Assembly (NCBI RefSeq): GCF_016863295.1
Contig: NZ_BOOP01000022.1
Coordinates: 1-64,000, forward strand
Reading direction: 5' to 3'
Length of the DNA stretch: 64,000 nt
Source: Planotetraspora phitsanulokensis
Lineage (GTDB): Bacteria; Actinomycetota; Actinomycetes; Streptosporangiales; Streptosporangiaceae
The translations under genes were made by a program, and so were the position numbers. The notes under the pieces are model-generated. The model was not told the DNA's origin. It ran no database searches and worked only from the letters and a program-made list of their open reading frames with translations. Below are positions 9,134 through 49,229 of this stretch, in pieces; positions within the stretch are counted from its first letter, which is position 1; each line of letters begins with the position of its first letter.

Positions 9134-9154
9134 GCTGACGTCCTTCTCATAGGA

Positions 9155-9209
9155 TTAATCGGAGCCGGGTCCGGTTAGCTCAATATAATCGGACCCGACT
9201 CCGGTTGCA
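9155..9209. promoter_or_regulatory. Shared operator region of SDR and TetR genes
   Basis: The 106-bp divergent gap carries two related copies of a TCGGA-CCGG motif: ATCGGAGCCGGGTCCGGTTA near 9157-9176 and ATCGGACCCGACTCCGGTT near 9188-9206. Each is an imperfect inverted repeat (AACCGGA/TCCGGTT type). Their position over both start regions fits a TetR operator pair. Confidence 0.6.
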
Positions 9210-9239
9210 AAGCGGGCGGCCCCTCACAGAAGGTGATCC

Positions 9240-9809: not shown

Positions 9810-9819
9810 GCGGCAGCGT

Positions 9820-9837
9820 GTCCACCGAACGGTGGAC
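9820..9837. promoter_or_regulatory. Inverted repeat before the second ABC exporter
   Basis: GTCCACCGAACGGTGGAC is a perfect 8-bp inverted repeat with a 2-nt centre, 58 bp upstream of the ATPase start. There is no T-tract, so I favour an operator over a terminator. Confidence 0.5.
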
Positions 9838-9895
9838 AACCGGTTCCACCGGTCGTTGGTGCCGCGCAAGCCGTACCGCGACGACGCTTGAGGGC

Positions 9896-10738
9896 ATGAC
9901 GACAGCGGTGAGAGTGCGCGGCCTGACCAAGAGGTACGGCGAGGTGCAGGCGGTCGGGGGCATCGACCTCGACATCTCCGCGGGCGAGGTGTTCGCGATC
10001 CTCGGCCCGAACGGGGCGGGCAAGTCCACCACGGTGGAGATCATGGAGGGCTACCGGACCAGGGACGCCGGGGAGGTCAGCGTCCTGGGGGTCGACCCGG
10101 GCAGACCGACACGGGAGTGGCGTTCGCGGATCGGGGTGGTGCTGCAGACGGCCAACGACGTGGCCGAGGCGACAGTACGGGAGACCGTGCGGCATTTCGC
10201 GGGCTACTACCCCAGGGCCAAGGACCCGGACGAGGTGATCGAGCAGGTCGGCCTGACGGACAAGGCCGGCACTCGGATCCGTCAGCTCTCCGGCGGCCAG
10301 CGGCGCCGGGTCGACGTGGCGCTGGGGGTGATCGGCAGTCCCGAGCTGCTCTTCCTGGACGAGCCGACCACCGGATTCGACCCGGAGGCACGCAGGCAGT
10401 TCTGGGAGCTGATCGAGAACATGGCCCATCAGGGGACCACGATCGTGCTGACCACGCATTACCTGGACGAGGCGGAGGCGCTGGCCGACCGGGTGGCCGT
10501 GGTCTCCGGCGGACGCATCGTGGCCGAGGGCGACCCCGCGACCCTGGGCGGCCGGGCGACCGCCAAGGCCAGGGTCGGCTGGGCAGAGGAGGGCGAGCAC
10601 CGGTCGCGGGAGACCGACACCCCGACCAGGACGGTGCTCGAACTGGCCACCCGTTTCGACGGCGAGGTTCCCGAGCTGACCGTGACCCGTCCCTCGCTGG
10701 AGGACGTCTACCTCCGGCTCATCGAGAACCCGTCCTGA
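9896..10738 (+). CDS. ABC transporter ATP-binding protein (DrrA-like)
   Basis: A 280-residue ATPase. Walker A is GPNGAGKSTT, the signature is QLSGGQRRRVDVA, Walker B is ELLFLDEPTTGFDP, and the switch is TTHYLDEAEALADR. The C-terminal 50-residue extension (SLEDVYLRLIENP) is typical of DrrA-type exporters. The start ATG 9896 begins at the conserved first strand; the frame extends upstream without conserved content. It pairs with the permease 41 bp downstream. Confidence 0.92.
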   Translation: MTTAVRVRGLTKRYGEVQAVGGIDLDISAGEVFAILGPNGAGKSTTVEIMEGYRTRDAGEVSVLGVDPGRPTREWRSRIGVVLQTANDVAEATVRETVRHFAGYYPRAKDPDEVIEQVGLTDKAGTRIRQLSGGQRRRVDVALGVIGSPELLFLDEPTTGFDPEARRQFWELIENMAHQGTTIVLTTHYLDEAEALADRVAVVSGGRIVAEGDPATLGGRATAKARVGWAEEGEHRSRETDTPTRTVLELATRFDGEVPELTVTRPSLEDVYLRLIENPS

Positions 10739-10779
10739 CCACCCCCTCAGCCCTCCGTCCCCCCGAGGTGATTCACCCC

Positions 10780-11619
10780 ATGACGCAGACCGTCACCCGA
10801 GCTCCCGCGCCGCCCATCGACCGGCAACCCTCCGCGATACGGCTGGGGCTTTCGCGAGCGGCGTTCGAAACCAAGACGTTCTTCCGCGAGCGCGACGCGG
10901 TCATCTTCACCTTCTCGTTTCCGATCGTCCTGCTGCTGATCTTCGGTTCGATCTTCGCCGACGAACTGGAGGGGACGGGCCTCAACGTCTCCCAGCTCTA
11001 CGTCGCCGGGCTGATCGGTTCGGCGGCGATGACGGGCTTCCAGAATCTCGGCATCGGCATCGCGATGGACCGCGACGACGGCACGCTCAAGCGACTGCTG
11101 GGCACACCGCTGCCGCGCAGTTCCTACTTCGTCGGCAGGGCGCTCAACACGCTGTTCATCTCCTTCTGCCAGGTGGTGATCCTGCTCGTCATCGGCGTCG
11201 CACTGTTCGGCCTGGAGTTGCCGTCCGAACCGTCGATGTGGGTGACCTTCGTCTGGGTTTTCGTGCTCGGCGTGTTCGGCTCGGCACTGCTCGGCGTCGC
11301 CGTCAGCAGTCTGCCGCGGTCAGGCAAGAGCGCCAGCGCGGTGATCACCATGCCGTTCGTGGTGCTGCAGTTCATCTCGGGGGTGTACATCCCCGTGACC
11401 CAACTCCCGCCCTGGCTGGTGAACATCGCCTCGGTGTTCCCCCTCAAGTGGATGTGCCAGGGTTTCCGCTCGGTCTTCCTGGGCGACGCCGGCGCCACGC
11501 TGGAGCTGGCCAAGTCCTACGAGCTCGACAGGGTCGCCCTGGTGCTGGGCGCCTGGGTCGTCGGAGGGCTGGTGTTGTGCCTGACGACGTTCCGCTGGAA
11601 GAGCCGCCGCGACGGGTGA
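10780..11619 (+). CDS. ABC-2 type transporter permease
   Basis: A 279-residue DrrB-like permease with six predicted membrane segments (IFTFSFPIVLLLIFGSIFA, then around VAGLIGSAAMTGFQ, FISFCQVVILLVIGVALFG, VTFVWVFVLGVFGSALLG, FVVLQFISGVYIPV and VALVLGAWVVGGLVLCL). The ABC-2 signature region DDGTLKRLLGTPLPRSSYF is clear. It forms the exporter with the preceding ATPase and is followed by its own two-component system. Confidence 0.92.
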   Translation: MTQTVTRAPAPPIDRQPSAIRLGLSRAAFETKTFFRERDAVIFTFSFPIVLLLIFGSIFADELEGTGLNVSQLYVAGLIGSAAMTGFQNLGIGIAMDRDDGTLKRLLGTPLPRSSYFVGRALNTLFISFCQVVILLVIGVALFGLELPSEPSMWVTFVWVFVLGVFGSALLGVAVSSLPRSGKSASAVITMPFVVLQFISGVYIPVTQLPPWLVNIASVFPLKWMCQGFRSVFLGDAGATLELAKSYELDRVALVLGAWVVGGLVLCLTTFRWKSRRDG

Positions 11620-11688
11620 GCTGAGCCTTCGCCGCACGGACGGAACGGGCCATGAAGCAGAACGAGGAGTGGGCGGGCGGGTGACAGA

Positions 11689-12882
11689 GTGATCCTCGTG
11701 AGATTTCGCGACATTCCCCCACCCGCCCAGCATGCGTTCATGCGCCTGAACGGTTGGGAGTTGCTCTATCTCGTCGCCTTCCTGACCGCCCTCTTCTTCG
11801 TGCTCTCCGACGGCGCACTCGGGACGGCCGAGCGCACGACGGGAACCGTGCTGCTCGTCGCATGCCTCGCGGCGTACGTGCGCCTCGGCCGGCGGGCCGT
11901 CGGCGTGGGGTATCGGTCGTGGGAGGGCAGGACCTACGTCGTCCTGCTGATCGTGCTGTTCACCCCGGTGGCCATCATGGCGCCGTACACCAGGTTCGTC
12001 CTTTTCGCCCTTTGCTCGCAGTGCTTCATGATGATCCCGAAGAACCAGGCGAAAATCGCCGTGATCATCTTCAACGTGGCCCCCGGCCTGAAGTTCCTCT
12101 TCGTCCCGCCGTCGCGGGAGGAGCTGACCTCCTTCCTTGGGGTGACGCTCATCGTCGTCGTCTTCGCGCTGATCTTCGGCCCCTGGATCGTCGACGTCAT
12201 CGGCCAGAGCCGGGAGCGGGCCTCACTCATCAGGGAACTGGAGGCCAGACGCGCCGAGGTGGACCGGCTGTCGGCGGAGCGCGGGGCGCTGGCCGAACGC
12301 GAACGGCTCGCCGGGGAGATCCACGACACCCTGGCCCAAGGGTTCACCAGCATCATCATGTTGTTGCAGCAGCCCGACGCCCGGCGGATCGAGCTGGCCG
12401 TACAGACCGCGCGCGAGAACCTGGCCGAGGCCCGCGCGCTGATCACGGAGGCGAGCCCGGCGCCGCTGTCGAGTGCCACCCTCGCGGAGGCGCTCGCGCG
12501 CATCACCTCGCAGTTCGGCGAGGAGCTTTCGGTGTCCGCCGACTTCGAGGTCCGGGGCGAGTCCAGGGCGACCTCCACCAAGGTCGACGTCGTCCTGCTC
12601 CGCGCGGCGCAGGAGGCGCTGGCCAACGTGCGCAAGCACGCCCGGGCGGCCGCCGTCACGGTGACGCTGGAGTACACGCCGGAGACGGCCGTGCTGACCC
12701 TCCGCGACGACGGCGTCGGCCTCGATCCGTCCACGGCCGAGGGATCCGAGGGATACGGCCTGCGCGGCATGCGTGCCCGGGTCGAGCAGGTGGGCGGCAC
12801 CCTCACACTGACGAGTCCACCGGACGGGGGAACGGTCCTGGAGGCCGCCGTCCCCACGAGCCGGCCCGACCAGGGAGCGTGA
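11689..12882 (+). CDS. Sensor histidine kinase (HisKA_3)
   Basis: A 397-residue kinase. The N-terminal half has about five membrane segments, the middle a coiled segment (ELEARRAEVDRLSAERG), then the phospho-acceptor EIHDTLAQGFTSIIML and a C-terminal ATPase (N-box AAQEALANVRKHAR, DDGVGLDP, GYGLRGMRARVEQVGG). GTG 11689 is used; ATG 11740 is an alternative. The gene overlaps the response regulator by 4 nt (GTGA). Its position after the exporter suggests it controls export. Confidence 0.9.
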   Translation: MILVRFRDIPPPAQHAFMRLNGWELLYLVAFLTALFFVLSDGALGTAERTTGTVLLVACLAAYVRLGRRAVGVGYRSWEGRTYVVLLIVLFTPVAIMAPYTRFVLFALCSQCFMMIPKNQAKIAVIIFNVAPGLKFLFVPPSREELTSFLGVTLIVVVFALIFGPWIVDVIGQSRERASLIRELEARRAEVDRLSAERGALAERERLAGEIHDTLAQGFTSIIMLLQQPDARRIELAVQTARENLAEARALITEASPAPLSSATLAEALARITSQFGEELSVSADFEVRGESRATSTKVDVVLLRAAQEALANVRKHARAAAVTVTLEYTPETAVLTLRDDGVGLDPSTAEGSEGYGLRGMRARVEQVGGTLTLTSPPDGGTVLEAAVPTSRPDQGA

Positions 12883-13523
12883 CGGTGCTACGTCTGATGA
12901 TCGTCGATGACCATCCGGTGGTCCGCGAGGGGCTGCGGGGAATGCTGGAGGCCGACCCCGGGATCACCGTCGTGGGCGAGGCGTCGTCGGGGGACGAGGC
13001 GGTGGTGCGTGCCGCGGAGCTGCGGCCCGACGTGGTCCTGATGGACCTGCGCATGCCGAACGGCGACGGGGTGAGCGCGACCGCCGGCATCCTCGCCGTC
13101 CGGCCGGAGAGCAGGGTGATCGTGCTGACCACCTACGAGACCGACCAGGACATCGTGCGGGCGGTCGAGGCCGGAGCCGCCGGATACCTGCTGAAGGACA
13201 CCTCCCGAAGCGACCTGCTGGCCGCGATCTTCTCGGCGGCGCGCGGCGAGACCGTGCTGTCGCCGGCCGTGGCGACCCGGCTGGTCACCCGGATGAGGGC
13301 GCCGGCCGCCGAGTCGCTGTCGCCGCGCGAGGCCGAGGTGCTCTCCCTCGTGGCCGAGGGGCTGACCAACGCGGAGATCGGGAAGACGCTGTTCATCAGC
13401 GAAGCCACGGTCAAGACCCACCTGCTGCGGGCTTTCGGCAAGCTCGGCGTGTCCGACCGCACCGCCGCCGTCACCGCGGCCCTGGACCGGGGGTTCCTCA
13501 GCCGGCAGAACCGGTCTTCGTGA
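12879..13523 (+). CDS. LuxR/NarL-type response regulator
   Basis: A 214-residue regulator with receiver acidic pair D10-D11, phospho-acceptor D56 in LMDLRMP, and conserved K in YLLKDT, plus a LuxR HTH (LSPREAEVLSLVAEGLTNAEI ... VKTHLLRAFGKLG is its recognition part). It is translationally coupled to the upstream kinase (GTG inside the kinase stop). It closes the unit of exporter, kinase and regulator. Confidence 0.9.
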   Translation: MTVLRLMIVDDHPVVREGLRGMLEADPGITVVGEASSGDEAVVRAAELRPDVVLMDLRMPNGDGVSATAGILAVRPESRVIVLTTYETDQDIVRAVEAGAAGYLLKDTSRSDLLAAIFSAARGETVLSPAVATRLVTRMRAPAAESLSPREAEVLSLVAEGLTNAEIGKTLFISEATVKTHLLRAFGKLGVSDRTAAVTAALDRGFLSRQNRSS

Positions 13524-13541
13524 CCCGCGGGGAACGTGCAC

Positions 13542-13566
13542 GGCACCGGCCGCCGGGGCCGGTGCC
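13542..13566. terminator. GC hairpin between convergent genes
   Basis: GGCACCGGCC and GGCCGGTGCC pair perfectly around a 5-nt loop (gccgg), between the response regulator stop and the stop of the convergent serine hydrolase gene. Likely a bidirectional terminator, without a clear T-tract. Confidence 0.65.
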
Positions 13567-13587
13567 GTCCGTCGGACGGGTCGGTGA

Positions 13588-14811
13588 TCAGGAGGCGAAG
13601 GCGGTGAGCCCGATGCTCTGGAGCATGGTGGAGTCTCCCTTGGTCGTGGAGTTCACGGTGACGACGATCCGGCGCTTCAGGTCGCGGGTGGCGAACATGC
13701 CGGTGCTGTAGCCGTAGCGGCTGCCGGTCTTGCCGTAGACGGTCACCCCGCCGGGGAGGGTCATGACCGACATCCCCATGGTGTACGCGGCGGGCTGGTC
13801 GTTGGAGGGGTCGTCGTCCCCGTCGAAGAGCGGCACCCCGTCCGGGACGGTGAACATCTTCTCCAGCTGGGCGGGCTTGAGAAGCCGACCGCGGAAGAGG
13901 GCGACCATGAAGCGGTCCAGGTCGTCCGTGGTGGAGATGATCTCACCAGCGGCCCAGGTCATGGTCTGGCTCATCTCGGTGACGTCCACCAGCCGCGTCT
14001 TCCCGTCGTCATCGGTGACGGCCAGGTAGCCCTTGGCGTGCGGCCCGTGGATCCGGACGTCGTCGACCGGGAGGGTGGTGTGCCGGAGGCCCAGCGGGCG
14101 GATGATCCGCGTGCGCACGGCGTCGGCATACGGCCTGCCGGTGAGCTTCTCGATCAGCATGCCCAGGACGATGTAGTTGGTGTTCAGGTAGTGCTGCCGG
14201 GTGCCGGGCTCGAACTCCATCGGATTGGCGGCGACGCCGTCCATCCACTGCTGCGGCGTCCACTTGTCGTAGCGGTGGTCGAGGATCCACCGGTCGTCCT
14301 CCGGAAGAGTCGGGCTGGGCAGACCGCTGGTGTGGTCGAGCAGCTCGCCGACCGTGACCGGAGGGTAGTTCGCGGGCAGCAGGCCGGGAAGGTAGTGCTG
14401 GACGGTGCCGTCGAGGTCGACCTTGCCCTCGGCGACGAACTGGAGGACGACGGTGGCGGTGAACACCTTGGTGATGCTGCCGATCCGGATCCTGGCGTCG
14501 TCGGGCACCGGGCGGCCGGTCCGGAGGTCGCCCACCCCCGATTTGCCCGTCCAGGAGCCCGCCGTCCCCCGCACCTGGACGAGCGCGCCGGTCGCCTGGG
14601 AGTTCGGCAGGCCCGCGATGGACTGGCAGAGCGCCCGCGCGTTCAGCGGGCGAAGCGACGACGCGCTCTCCGGGCGCGTGGCGGCGGAGCAGGTCGGAGC
14701 GGAAGTCGTCGGGGTCTTCGTCGCGGCCGCCGCCACAGGGGAGGCGGTGCCCGCGAGCGCCGAACCGGCGAGGGCGGCGGTCAGTGCGAAAGCGGCGACC
14801 GGCTTGAACAT
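13588..14811 (-). CDS. Secreted serine hydrolase (beta-lactamase/DD-peptidase fold)
   Basis: A 407-residue exported protein. The N-terminus is a signal peptide (FALTAALAGSALAGTASPVAAA). The penicillin-binding-protein motifs are present: S112-x-x-K115 in GSITKVF, Y208-x-N210 in QHYLNTNY, and a C-terminal KTG in YGKTGSRYG. This matches D-alanyl-D-alanine carboxypeptidase/class C beta-lactamase-like hydrolases, which trim peptidoglycan peptides or hydrolyse esters outside the cell. Sequence alone cannot choose the substrate. Confidence 0.88.
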   Translation of the reverse strand: MFKPVAAFALTAALAGSALAGTASPVAAAATKTPTTSAPTCSAATRPESASSLRPLNARALCQSIAGLPNSQATGALVQVRGTAGSWTGKSGVGDLRTGRPVPDDARIRIGSITKVFTATVVLQFVAEGKVDLDGTVQHYLPGLLPANYPPVTVGELLDHTSGLPSPTLPEDDRWILDHRYDKWTPQQWMDGVAANPMEFEPGTRQHYLNTNYIVLGMLIEKLTGRPYADAVRTRIIRPLGLRHTTLPVDDVRIHGPHAKGYLAVTDDDGKTRLVDVTEMSQTMTWAAGEIISTTDDLDRFMVALFRGRLLKPAQLEKMFTVPDGVPLFDGDDDPSNDQPAAYTMGMSVMTLPGGVTVYGKTGSRYGYSTGMFATRDLKRRIVVTVNSTTKGDSTMLQSIGLTAFAS

Positions 14812-15068
14812 TTTCGTGCTCCTTCATGGGACTCTTCGTCGGTGATCCCATGGTTTCGGGGCGGCCCCACCCGTGAGATCGCCTGCGCGAGCGGTCTTTC
14901 CGCCTCCCTCGCACGAGGGATCCGATCGCCGGTGAGGACTGCGTGCGCTCGGCGTCACGTGCCCGGCTGCGCGAGGTGGTCGACGGCCGATGTCCTTTGA
15001 CACAGCTTGATCGTGCGGGATATGACCTGCGGAATGACCCACGAATCGACGCCGCGCCAGGCGATCGC

Positions 15069-15719
15069 ATGATCGAGATTCCTTCCGGGGAGATCGTCAT
15101 GCGGGACGAGGGCGCGAAGTCGAGCTGGAAGGTCGAGGTCGAGGCCTTCCGGCTGGCGCCGTACCCCGTGACCCACGAGCTGTACGGCTCCGTTCTCGGT
15201 GAGGCGTCCGCGACCTCGGCGGGGCCGCGGACGCCGGTGACCGAGGTCTCCTGGAAGGAGGCCGTCCGGTTCTGCAACCTGCTCTCACAGGCGACGGGGC
15301 TCGAACCCTGCTACTCGATGGGCGTCGACCCCGACGCGCGGGACGTGGTCTGCGACGGGGATGCCGACGGCTATCGCCTCCCCTCCGAGGCGGAGTGGGA
15401 GTACGCGTGCAGGGCCGGGACCTCCGGCGTCCGCTACGGAGAGCTGGACGAGATCGCCTGGTACCGCGAGAACTCCGGCGGCGAGGTGCACGACGTCGCG
15501 ACCAGGACGCCGAACGCGTGGGGCCTCTACGACATGATCGGCAATGTGTGGGAGTGGTGCTGGGATCTCTACGATCCCGGCGTCTACGGCCCGTACCGCG
15601 TATTCCGTGGCGGAGGCGCGCATGACCGGCCCCGCGGATGCAGGGCGTCGTGCCGCCGCAAGAGTCACCCGGCCTTCCGCATCGACGACCTCGGGTTCCG
15701 GCTCGCCCGATCACGGTGA
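15069..15719 (+). CDS. SUMF1/formylglycine-generating-enzyme-like protein
   Basis: A 216-residue FGE-sulfatase-fold protein. The order is MIEIPSGEIVM, FRLAPYPVTHELYG, PVTEVSWKEAVRFCNLLS, YRLPSEAEWEYACRAGT, NAWGLYDMIGNVWEWCWDLY, then VFRGGG and GFRLARSR. These are the hallmark blocks of the family, which oxidises sulfatase Cys to formylglycine or forms C-S bonds in thiol biosynthesis. It is shorter than catalytic FGEs and no sulfatase is near; I see no sure copper-binding Cys pair, so function is open. The ATG 15069 start is preferred over 14943. Confidence 0.8.
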   Translation: MIEIPSGEIVMRDEGAKSSWKVEVEAFRLAPYPVTHELYGSVLGEASATSAGPRTPVTEVSWKEAVRFCNLLSQATGLEPCYSMGVDPDARDVVCDGDADGYRLPSEAEWEYACRAGTSGVRYGELDEIAWYRENSGGEVHDVATRTPNAWGLYDMIGNVWEWCWDLYDPGVYGPYRVFRGGGAHDRPRGCRASCRRKSHPAFRIDDLGFRLARSR

Positions 15720-15821
15720 GCCGGTCCGCCGGGCCGCACGGAGGGGAGACCGCATCTCGATCTCGCCGGCCGTCAGCGACGGCTCGTTGGTTGTGAGGTC
15801 CAGGTCGGTCATGTCCCGCAT
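15711..15821 (-). CDS. Possible short peptide gene opposite the WYL regulator
   Basis: From ATG 15821 (or 15812) a 36- or 33-residue peptide can be read: an acidic Leu/Thr-rich first half (MTDLDLTTNEPSLTAGEIE) and a basic tail (RSPLRAARRTGSP). It faces the WYL regulator across a 35-bp gap and its end overlaps the SUMF1-like gene by 9 nt. It looks like a leader-plus-basic-tail peptide or the stub of a lost gene. No good ribosome site supports it, so this is weak. Confidence 0.25.
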   Translation of the reverse strand: MRDMTDLDLTTNEPSLTAGEIEMRSPLRAARRTGSP

Positions 15822-15832
15822 GTTAGGTTCCG

Positions 15833-15855
15833 TTCCGGACGTTCTCCTTCCGGAA
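15833..15855. promoter_or_regulatory. Inverted repeat at the WYL regulator start
   Basis: TTCCGG (15833-15838) and CCGGAA (15850-15855) form an inverted repeat with an 11-nt centre, immediately before the GTG start. Also readable as a direct repeat of TTCCGGA. A possible autoregulatory operator. Confidence 0.4.
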
Positions 15856-15856
15856 T

Positions 15857-16897
15857 GTGAGGGATGCCGTGAACTCCGACGCGAGCCCGACGGCACGGGC
15901 CCTCCTGACCCTCGAACTGGTCCAGGGCAGCCCGGGCATCACCGCGGACCGGCTGGCCGACAAGCTCGGCGTCTCGGAGCGGGCCGCCCGGCGGTACGTC
16001 GGCATCCTCCGTGAGGCCGGCATCCCGATCGAGTCCGTCCGCGGGCCCTACGGCGGCTATCGCCTGGGGCGCGGCCTTCGGCTTCCGCCCCTGATGTTCA
16101 GCGCCATCGAGGCCCTCGGCCTGGTCATGGCCGTGCTCGACGGCCACCACGACCCGCGCGATCCCACCGATCCCGTCGGCAGCGCGCTCGGCAAGCTCGT
16201 GCGGGCGCTCCCCGAGCCGGTTGCCGCCCAGGCCGAGGCCGTCCGCCGGGCCACGGCGCCCGCCCCCGACCGCGCCGCCGCCCGGCCCGACCCCGAGACC
16301 ACGACCACGCTCGTGCAGGCCTGTTCGAACCGGCGGCGGGTGCGGCTCGGCTATCGCTCAGAGGCCGGGTCGGAGTGGACCGGCGAGGTCGACCCGTGGG
16401 CGGTCGTGGTCCGCCACGGCCGGTGGTACCTGCTGTGCTGGTCCCACACCGCCGACGCCCGCCGGGCCTACCGGATCGACCGGGTCCGCGAGGTGGAGGT
16501 GCTCGGCGACACCTTCAACCCGCCCGCCGACCTCGACCCGATCGCCACATTGGAGGAGCATCTCGCCGTCGGATGGGAGTACGAGGTCGAGGTCGTCATC
16601 GACGCGCCCGCCGACACCCTCAAGCGCCGCCTCCCCTGCGCGCTCGGACGGCTCGAGCCGCTCGATGCCGAGACCACCCGCCTGGTCGGCAGCACCGGCA
16701 ACCCGTGGTGGTATGCCGAGCAGCTCGCGGCGATCCCGGCGTCCTTCCGGATCGTGGGAGGCCCCGAGCTCCAGCACACGGCGCGCGCCGTCGGGCAGCG
16801 GCTGCTGGCGGCGAGTGAGAGCCCGGCTGTCAGCGCCGTCGGCGTGGGACGCCCGCGAAATAGGCTGGACGAGGAGGTGAGGCATCGTGACGGCTGA
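15857..16897 (+). CDS. WYL-domain transcriptional regulator
   Basis: A 346-residue regulator. The N-terminal HTH_11 domain (ALLTLELVQGSPGITADRLA, then LGVSERAARRYVGILREAG) is followed by the PYGGYRLGRGLRLPPLMFS bridge, and a WYL domain at about 150-230 (VRLGYRSEAG, VVVRHGRWYLLCWSHTADAR, YRIDRVREVEVL). WYL proteins sense nucleic-acid or nucleotide ligands, often in DNA damage responses. GTG 15857 or 15869 can start it. The end overlaps the DksA-like gene by 11 nt. Confidence 0.88.
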   Translation: MRDAVNSDASPTARALLTLELVQGSPGITADRLADKLGVSERAARRYVGILREAGIPIESVRGPYGGYRLGRGLRLPPLMFSAIEALGLVMAVLDGHHDPRDPTDPVGSALGKLVRALPEPVAAQAEAVRRATAPAPDRAAARPDPETTTTLVQACSNRRRVRLGYRSEAGSEWTGEVDPWAVVVRHGRWYLLCWSHTADARRAYRIDRVREVEVLGDTFNPPADLDPIATLEEHLAVGWEYEVEVVIDAPADTLKRRLPCALGRLEPLDAETTRLVGSTGNPWWYAEQLAAIPASFRIVGGPELQHTARAVGQRLLAASESPAVSAVGVGRPRNRLDEEVRHRDG

Positions 16898-17276
16898 GCG
16901 ACCTCGGGGCGCAGCGCTCTCCCCCTCGCAACAGGCGGCCGTACGAGATCTCCTTGACGCCGACCGCGAGCGGACCATGGCGCGAATCGCGTCGCTGACG
17001 CGCGATTGGGACGCCATCGTCGAGTCGTCCGAACTGGTGGCCACCGACGACGAGCACGACCCCGAGGGGTCGAGCACCGCCTTCGAGCGCGCCCATGTCC
17101 AGTCACTGCTCGACCAGGGACGCAGCCATCTCGCCGACCTGGACGCGGCTCTGCGACGGCTCGGCGACGGAACGTACGGAGTCTGCGAGAGATGCGGACG
17201 GCCCATCGCCGCCGAACGCCTGGAGGTCCGCCCGGCGGCGACGACCTGCGTCGAGTGCGCCGCCGCCCGGCGCTGA
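16887..17276 (+). CDS. DksA/TraR C4-zinc-finger protein
   Basis: A 129-residue protein with a coiled N-terminal half (LSPSQQAAVRDLLDADRERT and onward), a short acidic turn (ATDDEHDPEGSSTAFERA), and a C4 zinc finger near the end (YGVCERCGRP ... TTCVECAA). This is the DksA-like layout; such proteins bind RNA polymerase in its secondary channel. Here the coiled-coil-tip acidic pair is not obvious, so it may be a relative with a different task. Its GTG start sits within the WYL gene behind GAGGAGGTGAG. Confidence 0.88.
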   Translation: MTAERPRGAALSPSQQAAVRDLLDADRERTMARIASLTRDWDAIVESSELVATDDEHDPEGSSTAFERAHVQSLLDQGRSHLADLDAALRRLGDGTYGVCERCGRPIAAERLEVRPAATTCVECAAARR

Positions 17277-17330
17277 CGCGGAGACGAGGACGCGGTGATA
17301 CCGCTCGGTTCGTATGGAGATTCCGAGTGC

Positions 17331-18863
17331 TCAGGCCGCGGAGAATTCGGCGGGTGCCCCGAGCCACCGGGTCAGCGCCTTGTCGAGCGTCTCCGGGGTG
17401 TCCGGGTCGCCCGACGCCCAGACGGTGATCCCGTCGGGACGGACCAGGAGGCCCGTGAGGTCGGGACGGTCGGGGCAGGTCGTCGCGACGACACGGAGTC
17501 GGTCGCCGTAGCGTTCGGCGTGCGAGCCGATTTCCGCGTCGCCGCCCGTCAGGTCGAGGAGCAGTGCCTGGCCGCCGTGGAGGAGGTCGGCCAGCCTGGT
17601 GCCGTCGGCGAGTTCGAGGTCGGGTGCCGTGCGGCCGACCAGCGGGTGGTCGCCCTCGAGGTCGTAGTGCTGCCAGACACCGGAGAGCTTCTTGGCGAAG
17701 TACGTGGTTCCGGCCACGGTCCTCGCCAGGTCGGTCACGATGTCGCGCATGGCCCGGGCGCGTGGTTCGGGACGCATCAGCGCGACCTGGGCCCGGGTCC
17801 AGTCCAGGACCCACGCGCCGACGGGTTGCCGCTCGGCGGTGTAGGAGTCGAGCAGTCCCTCGGGCGCCCAGCCGCGGATCGCTGCGGCGAGCTTCCAGCC
17901 GAGGTTCATCGCGTCCCCGATGCCGAGGTTGAGCCCCTGGCCGCCGAAGGGTGAGTGGACGTGCGCCGCGTCGCCCGCCAGCAGCACCCGCCCCAGCCGG
18001 TAGGTGGTGGCCTGGCGGGCGTTGTCGGTGAACCGTGTGGCCGTGTGCACGGCGGTGATCGTGACATCGACCCCGGAGACCCGGCGCAGGGCCGCCTGGA
18101 GCTCGTCCGCGGTGATCGGCGCGTCCCTGTCGGCGGGCGGCCCGCCGAACTGCACGGTGAGGATCCGGCCCGGCATCGGGCCGTGCACGTAGACGCCGGT
18201 GTCGGTGCGGTGCCAGCCCATCCCCAGGTCCTCGGCGCCTTCGATCTCCACCAGCGCCTGGTGGCCGGTGATCTCGGGGCTCGTGCCGGGGAAGTCGAAC
18301 CCGGCCAGCCTGCGGACCGTGCTCCGGCCGCCGTCGCATCCCGCGAGCCAGGCGGCGCGGATCGTGCCCCTGTCGGTGTGGACGGTGACCCCCTCGTCGT
18401 CCTGGTCGAACCCGGTGAGCTCGACCCCGCGCCGTACCTCGACGCCGAGGGCCGACGCGCGGTCGCCGAGCAGGCGCTCCAGCTCGGCCTGGGGCACCAG
18501 CGAGACGTTCGCCGCGGGGCCGTGGCCGGCGAGGTCGGGATCGGACGTGTCGAGCAGGTCGTCATGCAGCATGATCCCGGCGAAGTGGCCGAGGACCTTC
18601 GGCCCCGGCTTCCCGGGAGGCCCGCCCGCACCCGGCCGCATGAACCGCGCGAAGATCTCCCGCTGCGTCTCCGCCAGCGCGGGCAGCAGCCCGCGCCGGT
18701 AGAGCGCCTCGGCTGTCGGCAGGTTGATCGATCCCGCCTTGATCGTCGTATCCACCTCGGTCAGCCGCTCGACGACGACCGCCGACACCCCGGCCAGCCG
18801 GAGCTCGCAGGCGAGCATCAGTCCGACGGGACCTGCACCTGCCACCACAACATCGAAGTCCAT
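17331..18863 (-). CDS. FAD-dependent aromatic monooxygenase
   Basis: A 510-residue group A flavoprotein hydroxylase (PHBH fold). It has the GxGxxG dinucleotide motif G9-G11-G14, a mid-protein DG motif (AGCDGGRSTVRR), and the GDAAHVHSPFGGQGLN FAD-binding block. The last 120 residues form the thioredoxin-like C-terminal domain of phenol/polyketide hydroxylases. Substrates are usually aromatics or polyketides. It resembles rifampicin monooxygenase only at family level. Start ATG 18863 is preferred to GTG 18881. Divergent from a TetR gene. Confidence 0.88.
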   Translation of the reverse strand: MDFDVVVAGAGPVGLMLACELRLAGVSAVVVERLTEVDTTIKAGSINLPTAEALYRRGLLPALAETQREIFARFMRPGAGGPPGKPGPKVLGHFAGIMLHDDLLDTSDPDLAGHGPAANVSLVPQAELERLLGDRASALGVEVRRGVELTGFDQDDEGVTVHTDRGTIRAAWLAGCDGGRSTVRRLAGFDFPGTSPEITGHQALVEIEGAEDLGMGWHRTDTGVYVHGPMPGRILTVQFGGPPADRDAPITADELQAALRRVSGVDVTITAVHTATRFTDNARQATTYRLGRVLLAGDAAHVHSPFGGQGLNLGIGDAMNLGWKLAAAIRGWAPEGLLDSYTAERQPVGAWVLDWTRAQVALMRPEPRARAMRDIVTDLARTVAGTTYFAKKLSGVWQHYDLEGDHPLVGRTAPDLELADGTRLADLLHGGQALLLDLTGGDAEIGSHAERYGDRLRVVATTCPDRPDLTGLLVRPDGITVWASGDPDTPETLDKALTRWLGAPAEFSAA

Positions 18864-18875
18864 GGATTTCACTAT

Positions 18876-18899
18876 AGTCACTAAAATTTCTTAGTCGCT
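18876..18899. promoter_or_regulatory. Likely TetR operator
   Basis: AGTCACTAA (18876-18884) and TTAGTCGCT (18891-18899) match as an inverted repeat at 7 of 9 positions with a 6-nt AT-rich centre. The 44-bp gap between the two start codons leaves little other room for a promoter, so a bound repressor would block both genes. Confidence 0.6.
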
Positions 18900-18907
18900 A
18901 CACTGAG

Positions 18908-19552
18908 ATGGTGAACAACGATCCTGCCCCGCTCACACTGCGCGAGCGCAAGAAGCGCCAGACACGGCAGCGGATCTCCGACGTGGCGTCGATGCTCTTC
19001 TTCGAGCGCGGCTTCGACAACGTCACGGTCGCCGAGGTCGCGGAGGCCGCGGAGGTCTCCGCGATGACGGTCTTCAACCACTTCCCGCGCAAGGAGGACC
19101 TGTTCCTCGACCGGCTCCCCGAGGCGACGGAGCTGATCACGCTGGCCGTCCGTGGACGCGGGGAGGGCGAGTCCCCTCTCGTCCCGCTGCGCCGCATGCT
19201 GCTGGAGCTGATGGACCAGCGGCATCCGCTCTCGGGCCTGCATGACGACTTTCCGCACTTCTGGCGGGTCGTGCTGGCGGCGCCAACGCTGCGGGCGCGG
19301 GCAAGGGAGGCCGTCGAGGAGATGGAGGACACCATGACCGCCCTCCTCGCGGAGGCGGCCGGCGTCGAGCCCGGCGACTCACGGGCCAGGCTGGCGGCGG
19401 CGCTGACCGTCGCGGCCTGCCGCACGATCTACATCACCACGGCCACGCGGCTGCTGGCGGGCGAGCGCGCCGACGACATCGCCGACGAGCAGCGGGCGCT
19501 GGTCGTGCACGCCTTCGAGAGCCTGGAAAGGGCGCTTACCGACGGCCTGTGA
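18908..19552 (+). CDS. TetR family transcriptional regulator
   Basis: A 214-residue regulator with an HTH at residues 18-62 (RQTRQRISDVASMLFFERG, NVTVAEVAEAAEVSAMTVFN, HFPRKEDLF). The C-terminal domain is of the MftR type. Divergent from the FAD monooxygenase gene across a shared operator, so it is probably its local repressor, relieved by a monooxygenase substrate or related aromatic. Confidence 0.9.
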   Translation: MVNNDPAPLTLRERKKRQTRQRISDVASMLFFERGFDNVTVAEVAEAAEVSAMTVFNHFPRKEDLFLDRLPEATELITLAVRGRGEGESPLVPLRRMLLELMDQRHPLSGLHDDFPHFWRVVLAAPTLRARAREAVEEMEDTMTALLAEAAGVEPGDSRARLAAALTVAACRTIYITTATRLLAGERADDIADEQRALVVHAFESLERALTDGL

Positions 19553-19616
19553 CGACACCACCGTCTGACGAGTCCTCAGCCGGCGACGGCCCCGAAGCGC
19601 TCGTCCACACCACGCT

Positions 19617-19667
19617 CAGGTCGGGAAACACAGCCCTGACCTGTGCTTTCGCATGAGCGGAGCCTAG
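19617..19667. repeat. Worn copy of the tRNA-Ala array boundary
   Basis: This stretch closely follows 61327-61373: CAGGTCGGGAAACA, then CCCTGACCTG-GCTTTCG, then CAT/TAT-G-G and GGAGCCTAG, the last being the 3' end of the tRNA-Ala gene. The match ends after GGAGCCTAG; the rest of the tRNA half is gone. It forms a hairpin (CAGGTC/GACCTG) between two convergent genes and may still terminate transcription. Confidence 0.7.
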
Positions 19668-19752
19668 CGGGGTCCGTGCTCCCGGCCTCCCGCCCGCATG
19701 TCGGCCCGATCGCGACGATCTGGGCGGGGGACGGCGCAGCAGTCGCCGGTCT

Positions 19753-20358
19753 TCACGCGGGGTCCTCGGCGAAGGCCGACATCTCAGCGGCCGACCAGTT
19801 CAGCCTGCCGCCACGCAGATCGTCGACCACCGACCGAAGCCACTGCAGTTCAGCCGCCACGACAACGCGCAGATACTCGGCTTCGAGCATGGTGATGCGG
19901 GGGAGGCCCTGCCCGGCCTCGGCGCTCAGGTCGGCGTCCAGTGCGGCCAAAGTCTCCTCGAGCGTTCTCACGCGCCGCTCAAGGGCGTCGCCTATCTCCG
20001 GCGGGGTGAGCATCAGCAGGTGGGAGAGCGCCGCGGGGAACTCGGGGAACTCCTCCTTGGGCGTGGCCAGCATGTCCACCAGCCACTCGCGGGCCACGGC
20101 GCGTCCCGTGTCGGTGATCCCGTACACCGTCCGCTCCGGATATGCCTGGTCGCGCTCGGTCTCCCGCACCTTGATCAGGCCGGTCGCGGTGAGGCGGTCG
20201 ATCGTCCGGTAGAGGCTCGTGCGCTGGCCCACGTTGACCACCTTGTCCTTGCCCCACTGCTTGATCAGCCGCTGGATGCCGTACGGATGCAGCGGCTTGT
20301 ACTGCAACAGGGCCAGGACGGTCAGAGCGAGCGGTGAGCGGTTACGAGGCGTGGTCAT
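19753..20358 (-). CDS. PadR family transcriptional regulator
   Basis: A 201-residue PadR protein. The N-terminal winged helix (SPLALTVLALLQYKPLHPYG, then IQRLIKQWG, TSLYRTIDRLTATGLI) has the conserved proline-histidine-proline-tyrosine turn. The C-terminal Vir_act_alpha_C helices (MLEAEYLRVVVAAELQWLRSVV) mediate dimerisation. It is divergent from an alpha/beta hydrolase gene; a perfect palindrome lies over the hydrolase promoter, so repression of that gene is likely. Confidence 0.9.
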   Translation of the reverse strand: MTTPRNRSPLALTVLALLQYKPLHPYGIQRLIKQWGKDKVVNVGQRTSLYRTIDRLTATGLIKVRETERDQAYPERTVYGITDTGRAVAREWLVDMLATPKEEFPEFPAALSHLLMLTPPEIGDALERRVRTLEETLAALDADLSAEAGQGLPRITMLEAEYLRVVVAAELQWLRSVVDDLRGGRLNWSAAEMSAFAEDPA

Positions 20359-20386
20359 ATCTCGATACTAGCCACAGTGCTACTAG

Positions 20387-20416
20387 TTGACAAACAAGTA
20401 GTGTCACTGACACTAT
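20387..20416 (+). promoter_or_regulatory. Promoter with PadR-type operator
   Basis: A consensus -35 box TTGACA lies at 20387-20392, with a weak -10 (CACTAT, 20411-20416) 18 bp on. Between and across them sits TAGTGTCACTGACACTA (20399-20415): perfect 8-bp arms around one base. An operator overlying spacer and -10 is the classic position for repression. The hydrolase start is at 20455. Confidence 0.65.
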
Positions 20417-20454
20417 CTCATCCATCGGCTAACAGCGGCTCCCGGAGGACTGCG

Positions 20455-21363
20455 ATGACCCCCCACGAACAGGCTCAGACGGCGGAACCGACCACGAATT
20501 TCGTCACCTCTGCCGACGGCACCCGCATCGCCTATCACTCCGTCGGGCACGGCCCGGGCATCGTGCTGCTCCACGGCTCCATGGAGACGGCGAGAAGCCA
20601 CATGGCCATGGCCGAGGCGTTGGCCGACGCGTTCACCGTCCATCTGCCCGACCGTCGCGGCCGCGGCCAGAGCGGGCCGTACGGTGACGACTACAGCGTT
20701 CGGAAGGAAGTGGAAGACCTCGACGCGGTGCTGAACGAGACAGGTGCCCACTACGTCTTCGGCGTCAGCGCGAGCGGCGTCGCCGTGCTCCAGGCGGCAC
20801 GTGTCCTGCCGGCCATTCACAAGGTCGCCGTCTACGAGCCAGCGCTGCTGCTGGAGGACGTCCCCCAGTTGACCGGGTGGATCGACCGCTTCGACCGGGA
20901 GATGGCCGCGGGCAAGGTGGAGGCCGCGCTGGTGACGAGCATGCTCGGGCTTCGGCTCGGGCCGCCGATCATGAACTTCATGCCGCGGGGACTTCTGACC
21001 TGGCTGACCAGACTGCTGATGAAGAGCGAGAACAAGAACGCCCAGCCGGGCGATGCGACCATGCGGACGCTCGCCCCGACTTTGCACTACGAAGGTGTGC
21101 TGCTCGCCGAGATGGCCGATGACGCGGACAGGTTCGCCGACGTGAAGGCCGAGGTGCTCCTGCTCGGCGGAAGCAAGGGACTGCCCTTCCTCAAGCCTGC
21201 GCTGTCCCGGCTGGAGAAGATCCTTCCCAACGTCGAACGGGTCGAGTTCCCCGGGCTCGATCACGGTGCGTCGGCCGATGTCAGCAAGCAGAACCAGGCA
21301 GGCAAGCCGGAACTCGTGGCGGCCGAACTGAGGCGCTTCTTCACCGCGGCGGCCGCGAGCTGA
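20455..21363 (+). CDS. Alpha/beta hydrolase
   Basis: A 302-residue hydrolase. Strand and oxyanion block are GPGIVLLHGSMETARSH, the nucleophile elbow is GVSASGVAV (Ser in G-x-S-x-G), and the late Asp and His lie around LLLGGSKGLPFL and GLDHGAS. The substrate is unknown. ATG 20455 after GGAGGACTGCG is the natural start. Controlled most likely by the divergent PadR protein. Confidence 0.88.
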   Translation: MTPHEQAQTAEPTTNFVTSADGTRIAYHSVGHGPGIVLLHGSMETARSHMAMAEALADAFTVHLPDRRGRGQSGPYGDDYSVRKEVEDLDAVLNETGAHYVFGVSASGVAVLQAARVLPAIHKVAVYEPALLLEDVPQLTGWIDRFDREMAAGKVEAALVTSMLGLRLGPPIMNFMPRGLLTWLTRLLMKSENKNAQPGDATMRTLAPTLHYEGVLLAEMADDADRFADVKAEVLLLGGSKGLPFLKPALSRLEKILPNVERVEFPGLDHGASADVSKQNQAGKPELVAAELRRFFTAAAAS

Positions 21364-21613: not shown

Positions 21614-22873
21614 ATGCGACAACTGGTCTCGTGGGCGGGGAGCGCCTGCGTGGGGTTCGCGCGAGCGTGCGTCGTGGTGGTCGTCGCCATGCTGGTCCCG
21701 GCCGTGTGGGCCGCCGCCGTGGCTGTGTGGATCTGGTGGTGGGACGGAGACCCGTGGTCAGGGATAGCGCCGTTGGTGTGGGCGGCCATCGGCACGCTCG
21801 CCCTGTCCCGCCCGCTGTGCCGAATGGTCCGCTCCCTCGTCGAGCGGTGGACGGGCACCGTCATTCCCGCCGGATATCGGGAGGCCGGGCCGGTGATTCA
21901 GCTGTCCACCGGGTACTGGTGGAACGGCTTCAGTTACGAGCGCACCAGCCGCGACGCCCTCCTGGATCAGAAATGGCGGACCCGGTGGAGAGATCCCGCC
22001 GTCTGGCGTGATCTGCGGTTCACGGCGATCGCACCGGTCACCATGGGCGTGGTCGCGGCCATCCCGCTGGGCGGAGTCGTGGCCGCGGCCCTCGGGTTCT
22101 CGCAGCCGGACCTGTCCGCGCGCCTTGTCGGGGTGCTCGGCCTGGTCGTGGCCATCGCCGGTGCCCCGTACGCCTGGAGGTCCGTCGAGCCGGTGGCCGT
22201 CCGGTTCCTCCGCGCGTCGACTGCGATGGCGCTGGCGGATCGGGTGAACGAGCTGACGGCCCAGCGAGCGGACACGACGGTCGCGCAGGCCGCCGAGATC
22301 CGCCGCATCGAGCGGAACCTGCACGACGGGGCGCAGGCACGGCTGGTCGCACTCGGGCTCTCCCTGGCGACGGTGGAGAAGCTGATGGAAACCCACCCCG
22401 ACCAGGCCAGGGCGCTGCTGCGGGATGCGCGAGCGGGCGCCGCCACGTCACTGACCGAGCTCCGCGATCTGGTCCGTGGAATCAACCCGCCGGTGCTGAC
22501 CGAGCGAGGGCTGATCGACGCCGTCCGCGCTCTCGCCCTGAACAGCCCGCTCGAAGCGGCTGTCAGCACCGACGTTCAGCTGCGCCTGGACCCTCCGATC
22601 GAGTCCGCCGTGTACTTCGGAGTCGCCGAGCTGATGACCAACGCGGTCAAGCACGCCCACGCGACCCGGGCGCGGATCTCCATCACCCGGGACGACACCG
22701 ACATCGTCGTCGACGTCGAAGACGACGGCCGGGGCGGGGCCGGTGTGCGAGACGGCGGTGGACTCGCGGGGCTACGCCGTCGCCTCGCGGTCTTCGACGG
22801 CACCCTGGAGATCACCAGCCCGGCGGGCGGTCCGACGCGTGTGAGGATGGTGGTCCCATGCGCATCGTTGTAG
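21614..22873 (+). CDS. Sensor histidine kinase (DesK/LiaS-like)
   Basis: A 419-residue kinase. Two N-terminal membrane segments (residues 15-45 and 50-70), a 60-residue loop rich in Trp and Arg (GYWWNGFSYERTSR, WRTRWRDPAVWRDL), two more membrane segments, then the phospho-acceptor IERNLHDGAQARLVAL and an ATPase with VAELMTNAVKHAHA, DDGRGGAG and GGLAGLRRRLAVFDG. Gene 50992-52323 is a clear paralogue. It overlaps its regulator by 16 nt. Confidence 0.92.
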   Translation: MRQLVSWAGSACVGFARACVVVVVAMLVPAVWAAAVAVWIWWWDGDPWSGIAPLVWAAIGTLALSRPLCRMVRSLVERWTGTVIPAGYREAGPVIQLSTGYWWNGFSYERTSRDALLDQKWRTRWRDPAVWRDLRFTAIAPVTMGVVAAIPLGGVVAAALGFSQPDLSARLVGVLGLVVAIAGAPYAWRSVEPVAVRFLRASTAMALADRVNELTAQRADTTVAQAAEIRRIERNLHDGAQARLVALGLSLATVEKLMETHPDQARALLRDARAGAATSLTELRDLVRGINPPVLTERGLIDAVRALALNSPLEAAVSTDVQLRLDPPIESAVYFGVAELMTNAVKHAHATRARISITRDDTDIVVDVEDDGRGGAGVRDGGGLAGLRRRLAVFDGTLEITSPAGGPTRVRMVVPCASL

Positions 22874-26133: not shown

Positions 26134-26358
26134 TCACAGTCGCCGTTGACCGCCCCGCGATCGTGACGGGTGTCCGCCCGAAGCCGACGACCGGCCACAA
26201 TTTGCTCATTAGACACGTAAATCACATATTGCCCCAAGCGCCGGCAGATCATAATGACGGACCGGTTCACGTGTAGATCTCCGTCCAGAGCCGGCCTCTA
26301 CCGCCTGCCGTGTGCGTCACCGCGGGCATCGGGAGGAACCCGTCACCTGCACGACGGT

Positions 26359-26421
26359 CCGGCGACGACGAGGGACAACCGCAGCGAACACCGTTGCTGC
26401 GGCGATCATGAAGGACATCGC
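26359..26421 (+). promoter_or_regulatory. Leader shared with the second RCC1 gene
   Basis: The 62 bp just upstream of this RCC1 gene match 58075-58137 closely (common blocks GACGACGAGG, ACCGCAGCGAACAC, GCGATCATGA/TCGATCATGA and CATCGC/ATCGC before the ATG). The AT-rich stretch farther up (26195-26260) also resembles 57990-58040. A conserved untranslated leader or control site is likely. Confidence 0.6.
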
Positions 26422-28410
26422 ATGACTGGTCTGACGGCCGAGACCCCTCCCGGCTCTGGTTCGGCGAAGACACTGGATGGGTGGTTGAGAAGGTGGGGGC
26501 CGGGCCGTCGGGCGCGTGTCGTGATGATCGGCGTGGTGCTGGCCGTGAGCGCTCCTGCAGTGACGACGCTGGGGTTGGCGGGGTCGGCGGCGGCCTCCAC
26601 AGGGGACTCGTCTGTGTATGCGTGGGGGCAGGGCGTCTCCGGGCAGTTGGGCAACGAGGCGACGGTCAATCGTTCCTCCCCCGTTCTGTCCGCACTGAGT
26701 CAGGTTGCCCAGGTCAGCGGTGGTGATGTCCACACTGTGGCGGTACGCGCGGATGGCACTGCGTGGGCGTGGGGCGACAACGCCTACGGGGACCTGGGCG
26801 ACGGAACCACGCAGGACAGCTCGGTGCCGGTGCAGGTTGCCGGCCTTACAGGCATCGTGCAGGTCGCTGCGGGCGAGTATTACAACCTGGCGTTGCGCTC
26901 GGACGGCACGGTGTGGGCCTGGGGGTGGAACCCCGAAGGGCAGCTCGGTGACGGCACCACCGTCACACGCCATACCCCCGTGAAAGTGGCCGGGTTGTCC
27001 GGGGTGACCAAGATCGCCGTCGGCGGCTACCACAGCATGGCGTTGCGCTCGAACGGCACCGTGATGGCCTGGGGCAACAACGGCTACGGGGAGATCGGCG
27101 ACGGCACCACCACCAGGCGCACCACCCCTGTGGTCATCCATGGTCTGACCAAGGTGACCCAGATCGCCGCCGGCTGGAGCCACAGTCTCGCGTTACGGTC
27201 GGATGGCAGCGTGATGGCCTGGGGCGATAACCACTACGGGGAGGTCGGCGACGGCACCACCACCCAGCGCGCCGCCCCTGTAAAGGTGGCCGGATTGTCC
27301 GGGGTGACGCAGATCGCCGCCGGTGGAGGACACAGCCTCGCATTGCGCTCGGACGGCACTGTGCGGGCCTGGGGGGCCAACGAACACGGGCAGCTCGGCG
27401 ACGGCACCACCACCCATCGCCACACTCCGGTCAACGTGTCAGGGCTGACCAACGTCGCCCAGGTCAGCGCAAGCGCCAATGACAGTTTTGCGCTCCGCTC
27501 GAACGGCACCGTAATGGCGTGGGGCAACAACGCATGCGGCAAGCTCGGTGACGGAACCACAACTCAACGACTCAGGCCGGTCGCCGTACATGCGCTCAGC
27601 TCGGCGACGCAGATCTCGGCCGGGTTCTGGCACACGCTGGCGAAGGTGGGGCCGCCGAAGGTGACGGCCAAGGCGGCGATCACCGGCTCCCGCATCGCCG
27701 GAGACAAGCTGACCTGCAAGGCCACCTTCCTCGCCGCCTCCTCGGTGAAGTACAGCTGGTCGCGGGACACGACCACGATCTCGGGCGCGACCGCCGCCAC
27801 CTACACGCCGGTGGCGGGCGATGCCGGTCACAAGGTGACCTGCACCGTTTTCGGCAACAACACCTACGGCACCACCAGCACCTCGGCGGCCATCAGCGTC
27901 TACGCGCGCTTCACCACGGGCACCCCGCCGGTCGCGCAAACCGGTAAGTACTTCATTTACCGATTCACGGCGACCGGGTACTCCGCGGCGAAGGTCACTC
28001 TGGTCTCCGGGACGCTCCCTCCGGGCATGCAACTGGCCACCGGCGGCACGCTGTCCGGAACGCCCACCCGAGCCGGCGCCTACACGTTCATCCTGCAAGC
28101 GGCCGGTGGCACCGCCCCCACCGCCAGAGGTGCCAAGAGTGTCGTCGTCCGCGCCCCGGCGAAGTTCACCTCGGCCACCACACCGGTGGCGCACGCGGGC
28201 AAGTACTACATCTTCCGATTCCCGACGACCGGGTCGCCCGCACCGAAGGTCACCCGCGCCTCCGGAAGCCTCCCGCCGGGCCTGAAGCTGGCCACCGGCG
28301 GCACGCTGTCCGGGACGCCCACCCGCAAGGGCACCTACAAGTTCACCCTGAAGGCGACCAACGGCGTCGGCACCCCCGCCACCGCCACCAAGACCGTCAC
28401 CGTCCGTTGA
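26422..28410 (+). CDS. Secreted RCC1-repeat protein with Ig-like domains
   Basis: A 662-residue exported protein. An Arg-rich N-terminus leads to a signal segment (VVMIGVVLAVSAPAVTTLG ... AAAS). Residues about 70-410 hold seven RCC1 blades of 50-52 residues, each near ALRSDGTVMAWGxNxYGxLGDGTTT. Then follows an Ig-like domain (KAAITGSRIAGDKLTCKATF) and two putative-Ig (He_PIG) repeats with LPPGLKLATGGTLSGTPTRKG. It probably folds into an extracellular propeller with a C-terminal stalk. A paralogue lies at 58138-60180. Confidence 0.88.
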   Translation: MTGLTAETPPGSGSAKTLDGWLRRWGPGRRARVVMIGVVLAVSAPAVTTLGLAGSAAASTGDSSVYAWGQGVSGQLGNEATVNRSSPVLSALSQVAQVSGGDVHTVAVRADGTAWAWGDNAYGDLGDGTTQDSSVPVQVAGLTGIVQVAAGEYYNLALRSDGTVWAWGWNPEGQLGDGTTVTRHTPVKVAGLSGVTKIAVGGYHSMALRSNGTVMAWGNNGYGEIGDGTTTRRTTPVVIHGLTKVTQIAAGWSHSLALRSDGSVMAWGDNHYGEVGDGTTTQRAAPVKVAGLSGVTQIAAGGGHSLALRSDGTVRAWGANEHGQLGDGTTTHRHTPVNVSGLTNVAQVSASANDSFALRSNGTVMAWGNNACGKLGDGTTTQRLRPVAVHALSSATQISAGFWHTLAKVGPPKVTAKAAITGSRIAGDKLTCKATFLAASSVKYSWSRDTTTISGATAATYTPVAGDAGHKVTCTVFGNNTYGTTSTSAAISVYARFTTGTPPVAQTGKYFIYRFTATGYSAAKVTLVSGTLPPGMQLATGGTLSGTPTRAGAYTFILQAAGGTAPTARGAKSVVVRAPAKFTSATTPVAHAGKYYIFRFPTTGSPAPKVTRASGSLPPGLKLATGGTLSGTPTRKGTYKFTLKATNGVGTPATATKTVTVR

Positions 28411-49088: not shown

Positions 49089-49150
49089 AGGGCTCCTCAC
49101 CCTGCTCAGTAGGCAGTTGACGGCCGGTGAAGGATGGCAATGTGCGGCGG

Positions 49151-49176: not shown

Positions 49177-49229
49177 CAGCCCATGGCGGCTATGGGAACG
49201 TGTTCGGAGCCATCATTCCCAGGGACAGC

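Follow-up and report, generated by a model that had tools for sequence, protein, structure and literature searches.

Integron cassette arrays consist of small gene blocks, mostly without a recombinase of their own, that are shuffled between relatives. The locus described here lies in a 64,000-nucleotide stretch of the Planotetraspora phitsanulokensis genome (hereafter the window) and resembles these arrays in its small, mostly recombinase-less blocks shuffled between relatives, but its boundaries are tRNA halves accompanied by integrase arm repeats. Cis-mobilizable elements (CIMEs) and the tandem accretion of ICEs and IMEs at the end of a target gene have been defined (PMC5704250), and the locus agrees with the account given there in that its blocks are bounded by att copies of the 3′ part of a tRNA, have lost or decayed integrases and are piled on one side of the tRNA; it differs from the CIMEs of that account in comprising many blocks of ~1–4 kb and in a tRNA terminator that varies by species. 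The ssrA islands of Dehalococcoides, of which sixteen are said to carry an integration module and others to be without it (PMC3146451), likewise form a tandem series downstream of a single RNA gene, with a 3′-end repeat bounding each island; that source describes a serine recombinase and a 20 bp tmRNA repeat, whereas the present locus involves a tyrosine integrase, a 44-nt repeat reaching to the tRNA-Ala anticodon loop and a tRNA-Gly counterpart. The AICEs, for which tandem insertions are described in Frankia and Streptomyces avermitilis (PMC3218068), share with it actinobacterial tyrosine integrases beside tRNA genes, but the contig studied here (C22) has no PF00589 match. Arrays of this kind are known, as tandem accretion, cis-mobilizable elements, ssrA islands and tandem AICEs, and the novelty of this one may lie in the number and small size of its integrase-less blocks. 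Among the literature matches listed, taken at the level of titles and abstract openings, this array in Streptosporangiaceae is described nowhere.

Results

The array is anchored at an intact tRNA-Ala(TGC) gene, called by ARAGORN at 61362–61436 on the minus strand, 42 kb from the 19.6 kb site that is the subject of this report. The terminator of this gene, designated T1 from its sequence and fold, occupies 61319–61361 on the same strand. A full boundary comprises a terminator, the tRNA-Ala 3′ half as far as the anticodon loop, and an arm of conserved sequence in which TTAATGGC is repeated. Three such copies, given on the plus strand, lie at 60281–60502 (T1, tRNA-Ala 3′ half at 60339–60382 and arm), 57621–57845 (T1, 3′ half at 57681–57724 and arm) and 50082–50268 (terminator T2, GGCCACTTCC..., 3′ half at 50125–50168 and arm). 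Each holds 44 nt identical or nearly identical to the tRNA-Ala 3′ half from its end to the anticodon loop, together with an arm of ~115 nt of conserved non-tRNA sequence that carries TTAATGGCACGCTAATGGCACG or, at 50.1 kb, a single TTAATGGCAC. A relic detected by profile at 53120–53184, also on the plus strand, retains T1 but no more than 4 nt of the tRNA acceptor end. The only other ARAGORN call in the window, a tRNA-Phe at 60339–60427, was rejected as an artefact of a boundary copy that holds only a tRNA-Ala 3′ half; there is no tRNA gene near 19.6 kb, as the initial annotation had stated.

The terminators are of three kinds, T1, T2 and T3. In a comparison of this genome with four congeners (G001–G004), the terminator of the intact tRNA-Ala is T1 or T1-like in this genome, G002 and G003, T2 in G004 and T3 in G001. 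Since the terminator of one and the same gene differs between species, it has been exchanged, as would follow if the 3′ half of the gene and its terminator were replaced together at every insertion.

At 19.6 kb, between convergent genes for a TetR-type and a PadR-type regulator, the window contains CAGGTCGGGAAACA (19617–19630), CCCTGACCTG (19634–19643), GCTTTCG (19645–19651) and GGAGCCTAG (19659–19667). The initial annotation had likened these four strings to the terminator and 3′ end of tRNA-Ala, and they indeed follow the order seen at 61325–61373, with two additional bases in the hairpin loop. Local alignment of 19614–19667 with 61322–61373, which spans the terminator and the 3′ end of tRNA-Ala(TGC), gave a score of 69 with two gap positions, compared to a ceiling of 25 over 1546 window positions outside the repeat family. 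By alignment, profile and fold, positions 19614–19644 are a relic of terminator type T1 with the hairpin CAGGTCGGG...CCCTGACCTG, while 19659–19667 match the last 9 nt of the tRNA-Ala acceptor end, on the minus strand, as a string. The likeness to 61.3 kb that was expected to continue past the hairpin thus holds through position 19667. From 19668 to 19711, alignment and profile indicate a weak, decayed likeness to the remainder of the tRNA-Ala 3′ half and to the first part of the arm, but 8 of 500 shuffles of this segment reach an equal score. Support for a putative eroded tRNA half at the site is marginal.

The match is specific to the repeat family. The tail pattern GCTTTCGYATGRGYGGAGCCTAG occurs four times in the window at up to 3 mismatches and in none of 100 shuffles. 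When the whole 9.17 Mb genome was searched at the same stringency with a pattern related to GCTTTCGYATGRGYGGAGCCTAG, five matches were obtained, four in the window with no mismatch and one elsewhere with 3 mismatches; the reversed control gave three. CCTGACCTGNGCTTTCG, which joins the second arm of the hairpin to the tail, is found 21 times in the genome at up to 2 mismatches (control, 4). All five exact matches lie in the window, at the boundaries at 19.6, 53.2, 57.7, 60.3 and 61.3 kb, and the two with one mismatch are on C45 and at 163.6 kb of C21, the latter directly preceding a tRNA-Gly half. The same hairpin at many unrelated terminators, which had been named as the observation that would speak against a common origin, was not seen. 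Moreover, a boundary profile built from 22 copies, chosen from 58 distinct rows by a loose rule that admitted a few T2 and other rows, finds 19612–19714 with 28.3 bits (E 3.5e-8 in 84 kb) and 53120–53184 with 41.3 bits, the best match outside the family reaching 5.6 bits. Of the copies in the window, those at 50.1 and 57.7 kb were among the rows used for training, and those at 19.6, 53.1, 60.3 and 61.3 kb were not. The core-plus-arm profile alone did not find the 19.6 kb site in a search of the window.

The boundaries at 19.6, 50.1, 53.1, 57.7 and 60.3 kb are all oriented as the tRNA. Att copies of the tRNA 3′ part thus stand in one orientation at block boundaries, as in tandem accretion, the 19.6 kb copy being clear only in its terminator and 9 nt. 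The profiles detected no boundary between 19.7 and 50.1 kb, so it is mosaic synteny that connects the array across that 30 kb, and neither profile reported one at the left end of the array (17.2–17.5 kb).

The hairpin at 19.6 kb can still fold. Its folding energy is better than that of shuffled sequences on the plus strand (z -2.55) and not clearly better on the minus strand (z -1.26), where the T-run of a functional T1 copy has been lost. A terminator scan of 19400–19900 alone predicted none. Of the two components of a functional intrinsic terminator, a G+C-rich hairpin and the T-run that follows it, the site therefore retains the hairpin and lacks the T-run.

The relic is flanked by two blocks with different histories in the congeners. 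To its left lie genes for an FAD-binding aromatic-ring hydroxylase (monooxygenase; 17331–18881, minus strand), absent at this place in all four congeners, and for the TetR-type regulator (18908–19552, plus strand), placed in the same block by Pfam and synteny; the TetR side has no match at that place in any of the four. To its right, the gene for the PadR-type regulator (19753–20358, minus strand) is kept in all four congeners with differing left neighbours, and shares its block with an alpha/beta hydrolase gene (20377–21363, plus strand; Pfam and synteny). The PadR/hydrolase block, from 19750 to ~21400, is 86–88% identical in the four congeners (PadR part, 86–93%). In G002, the end of a dksA-like gene (17278) is joined to PadR (19750) through 166 bases, and the 2.4 kb monooxygenase/TetR/hairpin block is missing; this block was therefore gained here or lost in G002. 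A strain free of the feature had been predicted to show a clean TetR/PadR junction, which is not what G002 has. On the left side of PadR, a tRNA-Ala half in shortened form is present in G003 (26.6 bits), and G004 has a hairpin resembling T2 (36 nt at 89%) that lacks a tRNA end; neither profile reports a boundary there in G001 or G002. None of the 11 best loci in the family with homologous monooxygenase/TetR pairs has a boundary, and the pair is accordingly not known as a cassette elsewhere. In G003, 110 nt resembling the end of the monooxygenase gene (17326–17435, 85%) lie right of the hydrolase at 3234–3342 of locus L010, beside sequence like 57969–58056.

Synteny over the compared regions defines a variable mosaic between conserved flanks at 17280–61361, its left limit being approximate. 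Right of 61.36 kb, collinearity extends over all of the 22.6 kb compared in the case of G002 and G004, and as far as ~75.8 kb in that of G001; the compared contig of G003 ends before the counterpart of 61.36 kb, and the tRNA-Ala of that genome is near the start of another contig. Left of 17.28 kb, the sequence is largely collinear with G002, G003 and G004, and G001 shows scattered matches only. The interval from 15.8 to 17.3 kb is rearranged in G003 and G004, which makes the left limit of the array (~17.3 kb) uncertain. Between the flanks, gene blocks occur in differing order and number among the congeners, and 8,388 to 19,186 of the 44,080 bases match strongly in the compared part of each congener. 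Against G001, 500-base windows of the array reach up to 96% identity with a median of 90%, compared to a median of 80% for the right core and 84% for four left windows, which suggests that this species and G001 have exchanged blocks. The corresponding array and core medians are 90% versus 92% for G002, 86% versus 89% for G003 and 87% versus 89–90% for G004; in none of these three does the array exceed the core in similarity, and the exchange signal does not hold for these pairs.

The array blocks carry further genes of several kinds. Two RCC1-repeat proteins are encoded in separate blocks (26254–28410 and 58138–60180), with related blocks in the compared parts of all four congeners. Separate blocks also hold two mutually related histidine kinase-type genes, at 21614–22873 (scanned against Pfam) and 50914–52323, and 51.7–52.9 kb matches the congener counterpart of 21.4–23.5 kb at 69%. 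A reading frame with Imm32 and YjbR domains lies at 49134–50003, just left of the 50.1 kb boundary, and one block ends (56820–57546) with a PhdYefM-like antitoxin, below the Pfam cut-off, and a PIN-domain reading frame that is possibly disrupted near its start. The Pfam scan covered 19 reading frames of the region and an integrase stump.

When five whole genomes of the genus were searched for T1 joined to the tRNA end at up to 3 mismatches, 12 matches were found, comprising three intact tRNA-Ala genes, five full boundaries and four relics, and all are on contigs of the array region or at tRNA-Ala itself. The relics, at 19.6 and 53.1 kb in this genome, 333.1 kb in G003 and 43.2 kb in G001, keep T1 and lose similarity 4–11 nt into the acceptor end, as judged by eye and from alignments; with n = 4, a preferred break at this place is only a suggestion. 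Three of the four sit 0–20 nt before a block that is found unmarked in another genome: the G003 relic precedes the block at 38988 of this genome, the G001 relic precedes the block at 45803, and the relic at 53.18 kb here precedes a 175-nt match in G004.

We extended the census to 0.88 Mb of loci, which were chosen by arm or core similarity or as congener regions, so that their proportions are unlike those of a random sample. These loci hold 98 distinct copies (58 Ala and 27 Gly boundaries and 13 intact tRNAs), compared to none in the reversed sequence, and the TAATGGC arm is present in 61 of the 85 boundaries. Over the window and longer stretches, 31 spacings between successive recognised copies have a median of 2.1 kb, with 25 below 4.5 kb; decayed boundaries are uncounted and the true spacing is thus smaller than this median. 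In the family, 155 of 250 genomes match the arm query in full or in part (E up to 0.01 per genome). Elsewhere in this genome, C21 161–171 kb (L111, L145, L147 and L165) and C20 10.2–10.6 kb (L144) hold like boundaries at tRNA-Gly, where an integrase accompanies the intact tRNA-Gly(CCC), as well as, next to tRNA-Val(TAC), a remnant of an integrase that has arm repeats and a T3-like hairpin.

Although PF00589 has 22 matches genome-wide, there is none on C22. The only trace of an integrase there, as opposed to the own integrase of an AICE, is a 49-residue C-terminal stump at 48900–49046 (plus strand), which was found by tblastn alone, has no Pfam match and shares 84% identity with the end of the integrase that adjoins tRNA-Ala in locus L091. 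Both in relatives and at other places in this genome, integrases of the PF00589 family adjoin tRNA-Ala or tRNA-Gly; the C21 gene beside the intact tRNA-Gly(CCC) of this genome is open over 409 residues. Same-direction matches of six integrase queries from this genome were counted at those 87 copies whose left side offers at least 1300 nt of sequence: within 1.6 kb, 61 copies show no integrase, 20 show fragments and six show matches of at least 200 residues. Loss or decay of the integrase in most blocks, as seen in tandem accretion, is evident from these 61 of 87 and from C22 itself. Where an integrase or fragment is present, it ends 61–128 nt before the tRNA end in 17 of 26 copies. The integrase at L111 in this genome is 40% identical to one on the Micromonospora rosaria record NC_006910, which we take to be pMR2. 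A common G+C-rich sequence (GAGCTGCCGGCGGCCGGGACC ... GGCGCGAAGCGCCGCC in the window) occurs at 61160–61258, in the tRNA-proximal block, and at 4807–4900 of L091, on the 5′ side of a shortened integrase gene.

Discussion

The 19.6 kb site is very probably a decayed att-site boundary inside a tandem array of integrative elements anchored at tRNA-Ala(TGC), and the relic is best read as parting the monooxygenase/TetR block from the PadR/hydrolase block. The initial annotation had called it a fossil of the same array boundary, and its sequence, its orientation and the comparison with congeners all argue for this. In the mechanism that we propose, a tyrosine integrase would recombine a circular element with the tRNA-Ala 3′ half, with the crossover presumably in the anticodon-loop region. 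Each insertion would supply the tRNA with a new 3′ half and a new terminator, and the displaced old 3′ half and terminator would come to separate the new block from the older one. Further rounds of insertion, integrase loss and the deletion and reshuffling of blocks, in an order that we infer, would then leave old boundaries far from the tRNA.

Three other explanations bear on how this site arose or why it persists. Short sequences in a G+C-rich genome can invite chance likeness between a hairpin with its tail and the array boundary, but an alignment score of 69 where 1546 unrelated positions give 25 or less, the absence of the tail pattern from 100 shuffles and the profile E value of 3.5e-8, together with genome pattern searches and window scores that reveal no equal match at unrelated places, lead us to reject this explanation, to which we attach a negligible probability. 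The proposal of the initial annotation that a terminator carrying a tRNA end entered at a place other than its tRNA site, or that the interval was moved away from the tRNA, would account for the 30 kb that separate 19.6 kb from the nearest other detected boundary. We consider such an event improbable, and it is not needed, because the site lies within the ~17.3–61.36 kb variable stretch that begins at tRNA-Ala and has the orientation that repeated insertion gives; in addition, G003 and G004 have relics next to this PadR block, and every one of the 12 matches in the genus falls within the array region or at tRNA-Ala.

It is possible, though rather doubtful, that an array-derived terminator was retained because it serves the convergent TetR and PadR genes in both directions and is now domesticated. 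The position of the site and the survival of the hairpin (plus-strand z of -2.55) are in keeping with this idea, as are the four T1 relics of the genus, since a surviving hairpin and a tRNA half lost from 4–11 nt into the acceptor end are expected if the terminator and not the tRNA half is retained. Against it stand the loss of the T-run, with no terminator found in the scan, the minus-strand z of -1.26 and the other sequence that G002 has between PadR and its neighbour.

Taken as an att-site boundary of the tRNA-Ala array, the 19.6 kb relic enlarges the array from ~11 kb of obvious copies (50.1–61.4 kb) to a variable stretch of ~44 kb, pointing to a pile of mobile gene blocks much longer than is apparent. 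Terminator type and block junctions in congeners make decayed arrays of this kind traceable. More speculatively, tRNA-Ala and tRNA-Gly in Streptosporangiaceae might carry integron-like arrays in which integrase-less blocks, each with a tRNA half, a terminator and a TAATGGC arm, would move in trans through a tyrosine integrase able to recognise the shared arm, and the 19.6 kb site would then belong to a class of relics that keep the terminator and have lost the tRNA half at a preferred place 4–11 nt into the acceptor end. With its small, mostly integrase-less blocks and swapped terminators, the locus provides a good case for testing movement in trans, and the family-wide pattern makes such movement of integrase-less blocks directly testable.
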